Below, one piece after another: positions 1 through 3,715 of a DNA stretch of 44,529 nucleotides. The stretch is from contig CALVXM010000009.1 in the NCBI GenBank assembly GCA_944371305.1, forward strand, positions 1 to 44,529. Reading direction: 5' to 3'. Source of the DNA: an uncultured Bacilli bacterium (GTDB taxonomy: Bacteria > Bacillota_I > Bacilli_A > RF39 > UBA660). A program made the position numbers and the translations under genes. A model generated the notes under the pieces. The model made no database searches, was not told the origin of the DNA, and saw only the letters and a program-made list of their open reading frames with translations. Each line of letters begins with the position of its first letter. Within the stretch, counting starts at the first letter, position 1.

Positions 1-340
1 AATTTATAACAAACTATTAAAATTTATAAAATTACTATTGACTTTTAATAGTTAGTCTCCTCACTTCTATTATGTCTTATATTTATATCGTTTATTCTAT
101 AAAGCAATTTTAACTTATATTAGATTATAAGTCAATTATCCTTTTTAATAATATGCGATGATTTTAATATGAAGTGGTTTATTTCTTTTTGAATTAAACA
201 AATAACAATTTACTCTATAAAGGTTTTTGCCCCCCATGTGTGCTATTTGCTAATGCGGGTGTTACCTTATTTTCTATCATCTTACTGCACCTACTTTCTA
301 TATTTAATTATATATTATTTTTTATTTAAAAATAAGATTT
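1..340. other. AT-rich intergenic edge, no convincing gene
   Basis: The stretch before the first clear gene is extremely AT-rich and holds no long reading frame on either strand. The rest of a B. subtilis-type spoIIIA operon (AA to AG) is not here, although SpoIIIAH follows. The only notable part is a locally GC-richer block at about 228-262, which lies inside a 21-codon reading frame on the minus strand (listed separately). Confidence 0.6.
215..280 (-). CDS. possible 21-residue peptide
   Basis: Reading frame of 21 codons, MIENKVTPALANSTHGGQKPL, ending in TAG. An AGGTG ribosome binding site (bases 288-292 on the plus strand) lies 7 bases before the ATG. Base composition is richer in G+C than its surroundings. 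I do not recognise the peptide. Against it: it is very short, has no recognisable domain, and I see no clear -35 box or terminator around it. It could be chance or a gene remnant. Confidence 0.2.
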   Translation of the reverse strand: MIENKVTPALANSTHGGQKPL

Positions 341-356
341 AGTTTAACAAAAAAAT

Positions 357-385
357 TCATAATTGTTTAAAAACTTTAATATACT
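357..385 (+). promoter_or_regulatory. sigma-E-like promoter of spoIIIAH
   Basis: TCATAAT (357-363), 14 bases, AATATACT (378-385). Against the known sigma-E consensus (KMATATT, N14, CATACAHT) this matches 6 of 7 and 6 of 8 positions. The predicted transcript start near 392 leaves a short leader with a GGAGGA ribosome binding site. In B. subtilis spoIIIAH is transcribed in the mother cell by sigma-E. In such AT-rich DNA some matches are expected by chance. Confidence 0.45.
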
Positions 386-409
386 TAACTAGATTATGGA
401 GGAATAATT

Positions 410-919
410 ATGATTAATAAAAAAAGTATCTGGTTTTTAACTTTATTTAGTCTTATTCTAGTTTTAAGCGTTTATTATATAACTATGCCTAGTGAATTAT
501 TATTAAATACAAATGCAGATTACGAGAAAGATAATAAAACTCAAGAGGAAACACCAACTACCACTATTGAGGAAAGTACAGTTTTAGTGGCATTAAGAGT
601 TGAAGCTGAAGAAGAATTATTAAAAGAAATGGAAAATTTACAATCAATTCTAAATAATAGCGAAGCTAGCGTTGAAGAAAAAAATGAAGCTTTTGAAAAA
701 ATGAAAGAATTAAATACTAACAAAGGTGAAGAAGAAAAATTGCAAAATAAAATAAAAGAAGTCTATAAACTAGAATCATTTGTCAAAATTAAAAAAGATC
801 AAATTGAAATCGTTGTAAAAAAAGAAGAAAATGATAGTACACTAGCTAATCAAATTATGAGAACTATTCAAGAATTATATCAAGAACAAAAATATATAAC
901 TGTTAAATTCACTAAATAA
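410..919 (+). CDS. spoIIIAH: SpoIIIAH-like stage III sporulation protein
   Basis: A mother-cell membrane protein of the engulfment channel (SpoIIIA-SpoIIQ feeding tube) that links the mother cell and forespore. The 169 residues start with a short basic tail and one membrane segment (about 7-26; [16 protein letters not shown] closely resembles the B. subtilis start). A Glu/Lys-rich coiled region (about 45-115) follows, then a small mixed alpha/beta C-terminus that would be the ring-building YscJ/FliF-like domain. B. subtilis SpoIIIAH is 218 residues, so this copy is short, mainly in the linker. The start is supported by GGAGGA seven bases upstream. No spoIIIAA-AG genes lie within the 409 bases upstream. 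No terminator follows, so transcripts may run on into gerE. Confidence 0.85.
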   Translation: MINKKSIWFLTLFSLILVLSVYYITMPSELLLNTNADYEKDNKTQEETPTTTIEESTVLVALRVEAEEELLKEMENLQSILNNSEASVEEKNEAFEKMKELNTNKGEEEKLQNKIKEVYKLESFVKIKKDQIEIVVKKEENDSTLANQIMRTIQELYQEQKYITVKFTK

Positions 920-929
920 TTATTGTTTT

Positions 930-1001
930 TTCCCTCACTTATTTATAATTGGTACATAGAATAATATGAAGAAATATAAACCACCCAAGGAAGTGAGGGA
1001 A
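930..1001 (+). repeat. 11-bp inverted repeat spanning the gerE promoter and ribosome binding site
   Basis: TTCCCTCACTT at 930-940 is exactly complementary to AAGTGAGGGAA at 991-1001, with 50 bases between. The right arm covers the GAGGG ribosome binding site of gerE (ATG at 1004). The left arm overlaps the -35 part of the sigma-K-like promoter. In a transcript running in from spoIIIAH the arms could pair and hide the ribosome binding site. A transcript started at the sigma-K-like promoter (about 970) would lack the left arm. Confidence 0.6.
936..963 (+). promoter_or_regulatory. sigma-K-like promoter of gerE
   Basis: CAC at 936-938 and CATAGAATA at 955-963, i.e. AC-N16-CATAnnnTA, a full match to the -10 consensus of the late mother-cell factor sigma-K with the two-base AC -35 element at about the right distance. 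gerE is a sigma-K gene in B. subtilis. The same layout occurs before spoVIF and before the small gene at 15194. Confidence 0.6.
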
Positions 1002-1003
1002 TT

Positions 1004-1210
1004 ATGTCTAAAAGTGTTTTGACCAAAAGAGAAAAAGAAGTATTTGATTTGTTAGTATTAAATCGTTCGACTGATCAAATTGCTAACAAATTAGGAATAA
1101 GTGAAAAGACCGTAAGAAATCATATTTCAAATGTAATGCAGAAATTAGGTGTTAAAGGTCGTGCTGGGGCTGTCATAGAACTTTTAAAATTAAAGGAAAT
1201 TTCATTATAA
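1004..1210 (+). CDS. gerE: GerE, late mother-cell transcription regulator
   Basis: A small LuxR/FixJ-type helix-turn-helix regulator that adjusts sigma-K-dependent coat gene expression. The 68 residues are essentially the DNA-binding domain alone, as in B. subtilis GerE (74). LTKREKEVFDLLV and GISEKTVRNHISNVMQKLGV, which holds the recognition helix, match that protein almost position for position. It lies between spoIIIAH and gerM; the gerE-gerM neighbourhood is also found in B. subtilis. It has its own sigma-K-like promoter, and a terminator follows directly. The ribosome binding site GAGGG lies in the arm of an inverted repeat, so translation may be controlled. Confidence 0.92.
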   Translation: MSKSVLTKREKEVFDLLVLNRSTDQIANKLGISEKTVRNHISNVMQKLGVKGRAGAVIELLKLKEISL

Positions 1211-1234
1211 AAAGGTATAAACAACCTTTTTTTT
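1210..1234 (+). terminator. terminator after gerE
   Basis: AAAAGGT, 7-base loop, ACCTTTT, then a run of T. It starts on the last base of the gerE stop codon. A GTATAAA-N13-CATAAAAT pair (1215-1242) overlaps it and could be a weak sigma-E promoter for gerM, but it would leave almost no leader before the gerM ribosome binding site. Confidence 0.75.
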
Positions 1235-1259
1235 CATAAAATTAATTAGGTGATTTAAT

Positions 1260-2222
1260 ATGCTTAAAAGAAAAATGATAAGGAAAATCATTATATCTAC
1301 TTCAGCCCTATTTGCTTTATTTTTACTTTATTTAATTCCTACTTCAGATAAAAACGATGAATTGGATGTTTCTCAAAATTTAGAATACGTCAATTTAGAA
1401 GTAGAAACCAATAGTATATATCTATTAGATAATTTTAATTATTTAGGAAAAACTGAAGTCGTTGTAAATAGTGAAACAACAGAAGAAAAAATAAAAGAAT
1501 TGGTAGAGGTATTAATAAATGGCGGGAATGGTGAAAATAAAATACCTAACGGGTTTAGATCTATTCTCCCTAGTGAAACTAAAATACTAAGTATTAAAGT
1601 TGAAGAAAATTTGGTTAAAATCGATTTTTCAAAAGACATTTTAAATATCAATAAAGATTTAGAAGAAAAGATGATTGAAGCTTTAGTATATACTATTACA
1701 TCAATTGACGGTATAGATAAAGTTGTTATTTATGTTGAAGGTGATATCCTAACTAAATTACCGCAAACAAACACTAATTTACCTAGTACATTAGATCGCA
1801 ATTTCGGAATCAATAAAACTTATGAATTTACTAAAACGGATGATATCAATCAGGTAACAATTTATTATTTAAACAAACACAATGATAACTATTACTATGT
1901 TCCAGTAACTAAATATCTAAACGATAACCGAGATAAAATAAAAATAATTATCGATGAATTAACCAGCACCAATACTTATAACACTAATTTGTTGAGCTAT
2001 TTAAGCAGTAACACTGAACTGTTAGCTATTGAAGAACAACCAGACATTTTAGAACTAACTTTTAATTCATATATTTTCTCTGATGTTGATAATAAAGATA
2101 TATTAGAAGAAGTTGTCTATACCATTTGTCTTTCTGTTAAAGATAATTATGACGTTAAAGAAGTTGTTATAAAAAATGAAGACGAGGAAGTTTTAAAAAC
2201 AGTTTTAAATACAATTGAATGA
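1260..2222 (+). CDS. gerM: GerM-like sporulation and germination protein
   Basis: A 320-residue envelope protein with an N-terminal membrane segment (about 10-27) and two GerMN (sporulation and spore germination) domains at roughly 75-160 and 225-315. Each holds the repeated pattern of a short LPS/LSS turn, a 'KI..I' strand and a 'I.FS' or 'LTFNS' strand. In B. subtilis GerM is a sigma-E protein needed to hold SpoIIQ and SpoIIIAH in place during engulfment, which fits the nearby spoIIIAH. Unlike the B. subtilis lipoprotein, no lipobox cysteine is visible, so it is probably anchored by its membrane helix. AGGTGA before the ATG supports the start. TGA is the stop. Confidence 0.85.
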   Translation: MLKRKMIRKIIISTSALFALFLLYLIPTSDKNDELDVSQNLEYVNLEVETNSIYLLDNFNYLGKTEVVVNSETTEEKIKELVEVLINGGNGENKIPNGFRSILPSETKILSIKVEENLVKIDFSKDILNINKDLEEKMIEALVYTITSIDGIDKVVIYVEGDILTKLPQTNTNLPSTLDRNFGINKTYEFTKTDDINQVTIYYLNKHNDNYYYVPVTKYLNDNRDKIKIIIDELTSTNTYNTNLLSYLSSNTELLAIEEQPDILELTFNSYIFSDVDNKDILEEVVYTICLSVKDNYDVKEVVIKNEDEEVLKTVLNTIE

Positions 2223-2224
2223 AC

Positions 2225-2252
2225 TTGACTTTTATAAAAAAACATTTATAAT
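2225..2252 (+). promoter_or_regulatory. sigma-A promoter of the 64-residue gene
   Basis: TTGACT (2225-2230), 16 bases, TATAAT (2247-2252). This is close to the vegetative consensus and sits directly after the gerM stop. Confidence 0.65.
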
Positions 2253-2276
2253 ATTCCTTACTAAAAGGAGGAAATT

Positions 2277-2471
2277 ATGAGCCATACTGATGATTTGTTA
2301 ATTGCTTTAAATTGTAAAATTGAAAGATTAATTGGATTGATGTCCACTAAAGAAAATAGTCAAGTTTTAAAAGAAATTAAACTTTTATTAAAAGAAGCCA
2401 ATGATTTAAAAAGATTCGAATTAGAAACAAAATATCCTGAACAATTTAGAAATTTTAAATTAAAAAAATAG
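2277..2471 (+). CDS. small charged protein of unknown function
   Basis: 64 residues, strongly alpha-helical and charged, with no signal peptide or membrane segment, so probably cytoplasmic. I do not recognise a family. It has a near-consensus vegetative promoter, an almost perfect ribosome binding site (AAAGGAGG) and its own terminator, so it looks like a real gene with substantial vegetative expression. It is expressed separately from the sporulation genes before it. The pattern 'LNCKIERLIGLM' followed by Lys/Glu/Leu heptad-like spacing suggests a helical bundle or coiled coil. Confidence 0.7.
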   Translation: MSHTDDLLIALNCKIERLIGLMSTKENSQVLKEIKLLLKEANDLKRFELETKYPEQFRNFKLKK

Positions 2472-2495
2472 TTATCAATTGATAACTTTTTTTTT
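2470..2495. terminator. bidirectional terminator between convergent genes
   Basis: GTTATCAATTGATAAC palindrome with T runs on the plus strand to the right and, because of the A run to the left, on the minus strand as well. It serves the small gene at 2277 and the glycosyltransferase ending at 2498. Confidence 0.8.
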
Positions 2496-2497
2496 GC

Positions 2498-3715
2498 TTA
2501 TTTTATACTAACTTTATGTTCAATTGGCACCCATTTAACATCTTTAATGAATAATGCTTTTAAAGCGCATATTACATATGTACTTAGATAAATTGGATTA
2601 TAGAAAATTGTCTTAATTTTAGTTTTTCTATTTAAAGCTAGTTTATCTTTTTTTATCATTTTATAAGTTATAATCATCATTATTATATAAGATAACAAAA
2701 GAACAATAAGAATAAATGTTAGAGTCTTAGTTATCGAAATATTTTGATTAAAATTACCAATAAATAAGTATAATATGTTTTTAAATACATATAAAATAAT
2801 TCCAATTGCAATATAAATAAAAGCTCTTACTCCTAAACAAACACTATACTTAGAACCATAATTATCTTTTTTAGAATCCATATCTTTAACAATTAGAGGA
2901 ATGTATTTCTTTCTCGCTTCAAAATAACCTTTAATCCATCTAATTCTTTGGCTAACAGTTTGCTTATATTTAGTTGGTTGTTCATCATAAAAAATAGCTT
3001 TATCATTATAATAAGTAGTTAAATTATTTAATATTGCGTAAAGGCTAAGTTCATAATCTTCCGTCAGTCCATAAAAAGGATAACCTTGCCATTTTTTTAT
3101 CCATGTTCCTTTAATATAAAAACCTGTCCCTGATATTATTGAATTAGCATTATGTTTATTTCTAAAATCATTACCTAAAGTATTTACCATAGAAAAAGTA
3201 AGACTTGAACAAGCTGCTATAACATTATCATTACCATTCTTACAGTTACGATAACCAATTCCGATATCATAACCTTGTTCATAAGTTTTTAACATCTCTT
3301 TAAAATAATTTTTATCTAATATGTTATCAGCATCAAAAATAAAATACAAATCATATTTTTTACTAATTTGTTTTAAAGCTTCATCTAAAGCATAACCTTT
3401 TCTTTGCCTAGTGGTCGTTCTTACAATTACAGTGGCATCATATTTTTTGCAAATATCTACTGTTTTATCTTTTTCTGATTCTACGATAACATAAGCATCT
3501 TCCATATTAAACTTAATTGATTGTTCCTTTAAACTTTTTAATAGACCTTCTATTACTTTACTTTCATTACGAGCTGGTATTAGAACACAAATTTTTTTAC
3601 CATATTGTTTGGATAAACTAATCTTATTTTTATTTTTTCTAATATTAATATTACCCATAATTAGTAGTAAAACACCTATTACAACAAAACACAAACAAAT
3701 TAAATCAAACATCAT
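2498..3715 (-). CDS. membrane family 2 glycosyltransferase
   Basis: A processive-type GT2 enzyme (hyaluronan/chitin/poly-GlcNAc synthase-like) expected to transfer sugars from UDP- or similar donors at the cytoplasmic face. One membrane segment (about 4-22) is followed by a GT-A domain: VLIPARNES near 44-52, the metal-binding DAD at 128-130, the probable catalytic ED at 219-220 in GLTEDYELS, and QRIRW at 256-260. Two or more further membrane segments follow (about 290-360). The Q..RW motif is typical of processive enzymes. The start overlaps the preceding CmpB-like gene by 4 bases (ATGA), so the two are translationally coupled. The polymer made cannot be told from sequence. Confidence 0.8.
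   Translation of the reverse strand: MMFDLICLCFVVIGVLLLIMGNINIRKNKNKISLSKQYGKKICVLIPARNESKVIEGLLKSLKEQSIKFNMEDAYVIVESEKDKTVDICKKYDATVIVRTTTRQRKGYALDEALKQISKKYDLYFIFDADNILDKNYFKEMLKTYEQGYDIGIGYRNCKNGNDNVIAACSSLTFSMVNTLGNDFRNKHNANSIISGTGFYIKGTWIKKWQGYPFYGLTEDYELSLYAILNNLTTYYNDKAIFYDEQPTKYKQTVSQRIRWIKGYFEARKKYIPLIVKDMDSKKDNYGSKYSVCLGVRAFIYIAIGIILYVFKNILYLFIGNFNQNISITKTLTFILIVLLLSYIIMMIITYKMIKKDKLALNRKTKIKTIFYNPIYLSTYVICALKALFIKDVKWVPIEHKVSIK

Follow-up and report, generated by a model that had tools for sequence, protein, structure and literature searches.

The gerE leader of this uncultured RF39 bacterium probably encodes an RNA mask that depends on the origin of the transcript: judged from the sequence, early RNA reading through from spoIIIAH would hide the gerE Shine-Dalgarno sequence (SD), and RNA from the late gerE promoter would leave it free. 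We regard this as the best explanation for the features described below. According to the proposed mechanism, RNA made by sigma-E polymerase from spoIIIAH would extend across the gerE promoter and carry its -35/spacer strand, which would pair with the gerE SD and hide it, so that little or no GerE would be produced from early RNA. RNA made after the switch to sigma-K would begin at about position 970, past the mask strand, and could be translated. Translation of gerE would then be set by which promoter made its message. The two arms, the promoter-like motif, the covariation and the missing terminator are read from the DNA; the read-through RNA, the late start site, the translational effect and the use as a timer are what we infer.

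The spoIIIAH-gerE locus

The analyzed stretch of 44,529 nt (the window) is the start of a contig from a genome of 1.14 Mb; sporulation has been predicted for the order RF39 (PMC10868615). About 400 bases at the contig start (1-409) are without a gene. They are followed on the plus strand by spoIIIAH (410-919; PF12685, E = 7.8e-13), the upstream neighbour of gerE (1004-1210, plus strand, ATG at 1004). The gerE product is a short stand-alone LuxR-type DNA-binding regulator of 68 aa, as GerE should be, with a PF00196 domain (E = 7.4e-20) and GerE itself (1FSE, E = 8.7e-24) as its top PDB match. By analogy with B. subtilis, spoIIIAH would be an early gene of the sigma-E class. Comparison of spoIIIAH upstream regions across genus and family revealed, by eye, a putative sigma-E-type promoter (358-385, plus strand; CATA at 358-361, N15, TAATATACT at 377-385). 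In the relative G001 the genes upstream of spoIIIAH lie on the opposite strand, so that spoIIIAH heads its own unit there. Elsewhere in the genome we found a sigma-E-like gene behind a probable spoIIGA, the latter judged by position and size, and a sigma-K-like gene scoring 295.2 bits, slightly below the TIGR02846 cut-off of 298.65.

Downstream of gerE lies gerM (1260-2222; GerM, PF10646). A terminator-like hairpin (AAAGGT...ACCTTT and a T run; 1211-1234, plus strand) was read by eye at the 3' end of gerE in the window and in relatives, its G+C content being too low for our stricter terminator scan. An operon continuing into gerM was set aside because most genera have a terminator-like hairpin after gerE (by eye). 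Inspection of the same region (window 1211-1260 and relatives) showed a CATAT after the T run in many genera and, in many, a G[CT]AT about 16 nt upstream of it, inside the hairpin; together these could be a sigma-E-type promoter of gerM that overlaps the terminator.

The original prediction held that spoIIIAH has no terminator. This stands for the present genome and its genus: a scan of window positions 1-3000 that required at least three G-C pairs found no terminator-like site, and a looser scan before gerE found none in this genome and none recognizable in the genus. It does not extend to the whole family: of the 84 genera sorted by terminator, 26 have at least one genome with a terminator-like site upstream of the mask and 58 have at least one without, a sorting that was counted over 78 long-leader genera and places some genera in both groups. 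Genera with and without such a site alike show covariation. Where gerE was not found beside spoIIIAH, g88 and g40 pair at close to chance level and g60 and g104 weakly, and g134 retains the pairing; the comparison of adjacent with non-adjacent arrangements reaches only p = 0.075 by genus.

The gerE promoter and ribosome-binding site share an inverted repeat

The left arm of the repeat, TTCCCTCACTT (930-940, plus strand), is the proposed mask strand and starts 11 nt past the spoIIIAH stop codon. Its exact complement, the right arm AAGTGAGGGAA (991-1001, plus strand), lies 50 nt away and overlaps the SD AAGGAAGTGAGGG (987-999, plus strand), which was read from the sequence and is conserved in the genus. 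The match of 11/11 confirms the inverted repeat, and the arms are conserved across most of the genus. Compared with a first-order Markov sequence of the same composition, one perfect 11-nt repeat with a gap of 3-60 nt and at least five G/C was observed against 0.07 expected; counting all such 11-nt repeats gave 23 against 6.3 expected, indicating that a repeat by itself is not rare here. No other of the 39 gene starts compared in the window is as complementary upstream to its SD region as gerE, whose leader reaches 11 nt and -20.1 kcal/mol; the runner-up has -13.3 kcal/mol, and the next longest match is 8 nt. The fold of the whole leader is unexceptional in the window relative to dinucleotide shuffles (z = -1.12) and reaches z = -3.85 relative to shuffles in one relative carrying the other sequence type of the genus. 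A search of window positions 800-1300 with Rfam covariance models, at a threshold of E = 1, gave no hits.

A sigma-K-like promoter had been proposed at 955-963, and both its form and its conservation across genera bear this out. CATAGAATA at 955-963 is preceded by CAC (936-938, within the left arm) exactly 16 nt upstream, giving a sigma-K-type promoter CAC-N16-CATAGAATA (936-963, plus strand) with conserved motif and spacing. With one leader taken per genus, 64/107 genera have a CAC that ends 16 nt ahead of CATA, and 73/107 have AC at this position. The SigK-dependent bclA promoter of B. thuringiensis has the form CAC-N16-CATATGTTA (PMC4750369). Judged by its AC in the -35, a spacer of about 16 nt and a CATANNNTA -10, the gerE promoter is thus of the sigma-K type and putatively sigma-K dependent, with an RNA start expected near 970. 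Because the left arm overlaps the -35, RNA from this promoter would be without the left arm, and the same left-arm bases appear to serve both as -35 and as pairing strand.

Several further features were observed around these promoters. In 57/107 genera (e.g., L003) a TRGGY, which we take to be the GerE-box core, lies about 33-35 nt ahead of CATA, compared to 0 to 1 occurrences in control windows. Leaders of the window type do not have it; autoregulation by GerE through this motif is possible. A second site of the form CAC-N16-CATACAATA (L071; G000:C4:21831-21858, minus strand), found in most genomes of the genus, precedes by eye the gene of a small hydrophobic protein that resembles YjcZ-type sporulation proteins. 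The -10 in genus g46 (L308, L312) is flanked by an inverted repeat, AATACTTCATA...TATGAAGTATT, of which related copies are less exact. Some gerE leaders are very short (L164, L170, L178, L194, L197), their start codon following about 15-20 nt after the -10 motif with scant room for an SD.

Folding with and without the left arm gave the result anticipated by the original prediction: in the window, the predicted unpaired probability of the SD is 0.07 in the read-through RNA, where it would be hidden, and 0.60 in the sigma-K RNA. With a foreign left region the predicted exposure is 0.43, and with a shuffled one 0.45. Across 78 genera, mean predicted SD exposure is 0.25 for the long RNA, 0.52 for the sigma-K RNA, 0.33 with foreign and 0.40 with shuffled left regions.

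Promoter and SD regions covary across the family

Relatives were collected by protein search, yielding 147 leaders from 84 genera, of which 140 leaders from 78 genera were of sufficient length for the main tests; L129, L161 and L189 were excluded as their start could not be placed at ATG, GTG or TTG. In these three and in L185 and L231, gerE apparently starts with ATA, ATT or ATC (frame read by eye). Five genomes outside the family were searched by tblastn for gerE loci, and no spoIIIAH was found upstream within the fetched stretch of up to ~1.5 kb; since these leaders also look different, the comparison was kept within the family. The tests paired a promoter-near window in silico with the 24 nt preceding the start codon, using duplex energies rather than full folds on metagenome-derived genomes, and relatedness was judged from gerE itself.

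With one genome per genus (78 genera), pairing of a promoter region is stronger with the SD region of the same genome than with permuted partners. The signal is limited to windows overlapping the -35/spacer and peaks at -26 to -2 from CATA (z = -8.35), and no pairing signal was seen for left windows from -110 to -44. As relatedness may mimic an advantage of own pairs, partners were also swapped between nearest relatives. Over 61 such pairs the mean gain was -0.89 kcal/mol, with 36 pairs for and 13 against (p = 8e-5), and the swaps were null both for right windows that began at the gerE start codon or within the gene and for left windows further upstream. Shuffling the left windows abolished the effect (+0.008 vs -0.87 for real ones), indicating that base composition is not the explanation. 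Several overlapping windows had been tried, and the -26 window was then fixed before new genera were added; in 20 previously unused genera it again favoured own pairs (-9.72 vs -7.37, z = -4.7).

Taken individually against shuffled left windows, 41/84 genera are significant, compared to 4/84 for a control window. A sizeable minority of genera show weak pairing or none, among them g4, g3, g36, g149 and several with very short leaders. The asymmetry between strands is mild and prefers the plus strand, i.e., RNA over DNA (z 8.0-8.6 vs 6.2-6.9). In the commonest (canonical) register no single column pair clearly covaries, so that our claim rests on the helix-level tests. Within the genus, the consensus fold contains only one pair with a double change, and C-to-U changes in the left arm preserve pairing as U-G. 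The original prediction would have been refuted by a lack of both conservation and compensatory change in relatives; instead, the arms are conserved in most of the genus, and helix-level covariation was seen family-wide and repeated in unused genera.

The pairing strands themselves differ between lineages. Two main leader types exist in the genus, the window type TTCCCTCACTT/AAGTGAGGGAA and another in which CTTATTTTCTTAAGG is paired with CCTTAAGGAAGTGAG. Long helices without TCAC/GTGAG cores occur in some other genera (L151, L204, L131); in L151 and L204 (genus g15) the helix reads CCTTTATTTT/AAAATAAAGG, with neither a TCAC nor a GTGAG core.

Alternative explanations for the complementarity

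The two arms could simply be two fixed motifs that happen to match, with nothing but a sigma-K -35 (TCAC) on the left and an extended SD (GTGA) on the right. Both cores are indeed constrained separately, canonical column pairs are without clear covariation, and some genera have GCAC or ACAC as -35 with an unchanged SD. However, the permutations and nearest-relative swaps retain both motifs and own pairs are still better, as they are in the unused genera, and the long alternative helices of L151, L204 and L131 lack these cores. We had initially expected such a coincidence; the permutation, swap, composition and new-genera tests disfavour it, and we now consider it unlikely.

Even less probable is an action of the helix on RNA fate, by shielding the 3' end of spoIIIAH or by serving as a processing site for read-through RNA. 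A helix located, in the window, 11 nt past the stop codon of spoIIIAH, where many genera also miss a terminator, would suit this role, but the right-hand signal is found only over the SD region, with none from the start codon on or inside gerE, and the helix is kept in genera that possess a terminator. A DNA operator overlapping the -35, which the original prediction had offered as the other reading, would make the two arms half-sites bound by GerE, SpoIIID or another regulator, acting via looping or promoter occlusion. This reading is half right in that the left arm does overlap the -35, and a GerE-box-like TRGGY lies slightly upstream in 57/107 genera; this motif, however, is distinct from the arms and missing in leaders of the window type. 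Moreover, the arms are wholly different in sequence between lineages (e.g., L204) with complementarity kept, unlike the half-sites of one protein. Variation of this extent fits pairing rather than a DNA-binding protein of one specificity, and we judge an operator to be highly improbable.

Compared with these alternatives we favour the origin-dependent mask, and we are inclined, though less firmly, to extend it to this uncultured family of gut spore-formers: gerE would be read only from sigma-K RNA, the mask would be encoded by the -35/spacer DNA of the promoter, and the unusual SD GTGAGG would owe its sequence to a requirement for pairing with the promoter strand.

Comparison with known systems

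In B. subtilis, sigma-K polymerase transcribes gerE, whose product in turn represses sigK (PMC4750369), so that early GerE would plausibly disturb the cascade. Sporulation timing is commonly attributed to the order in which sigma factors and DNA-binding regulators act, and in the literature consulted the known control of gerE in the B. subtilis cascade of sigma-E, SpoIIID, sigma-K and GerE is transcriptional. If the mask model is true, it adds a translational checkpoint that senses which promoter made the message, and it provides a clear case of promoter DNA that is constrained as RNA structure. Neither a gerE RNA mask nor the spoIIIAH-gerE arrangement turned up in a literature search that covered few subscription journals.

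The mechanism proposed here is similar in kind, with no suggestion of common descent, to that of gene e (lysozyme) of phage T4, and also of soc, 49 and I-TevI, where a long early transcript folds and hides the ribosome-binding site (PMC3014915). In these phage genes the late promoter covers the DNA of the 5' strand, so that late RNA lacks this strand and is translated, and a 100-fold repression has been reported for gene e (PMC3014915). In gerE, likewise, the ribosome-binding site is predicted to lie in a helix of the long RNA (predicted exposure 0.07 vs 0.60, and covariation), and the late promoter, with its -35 in the left arm, its -10 at 955-963 and a presumed start, overlaps the DNA of the 5' strand. 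As with the T4 lysis gene, a late gene could, if the model holds, sit behind an early gene without early use. In contrast to the phage genes, which serve lysis or homing and use a T4 late promoter, gerE is a chromosomal sporulation regulator whose proposed mask strand contains a sigma-K-type -35. Its helix-level covariation has been tested in about 98 genera.

A second parallel is the fold-back protection of IS10 from read-through transcription, in which RNA entering from outside hides the gene start and thereby guards the mobile element against any outside promoter. The gerE start would be hidden in incoming RNA in the same way. In contrast to IS10, however, the gerE mask would act as a developmental switch between two sigma factors.
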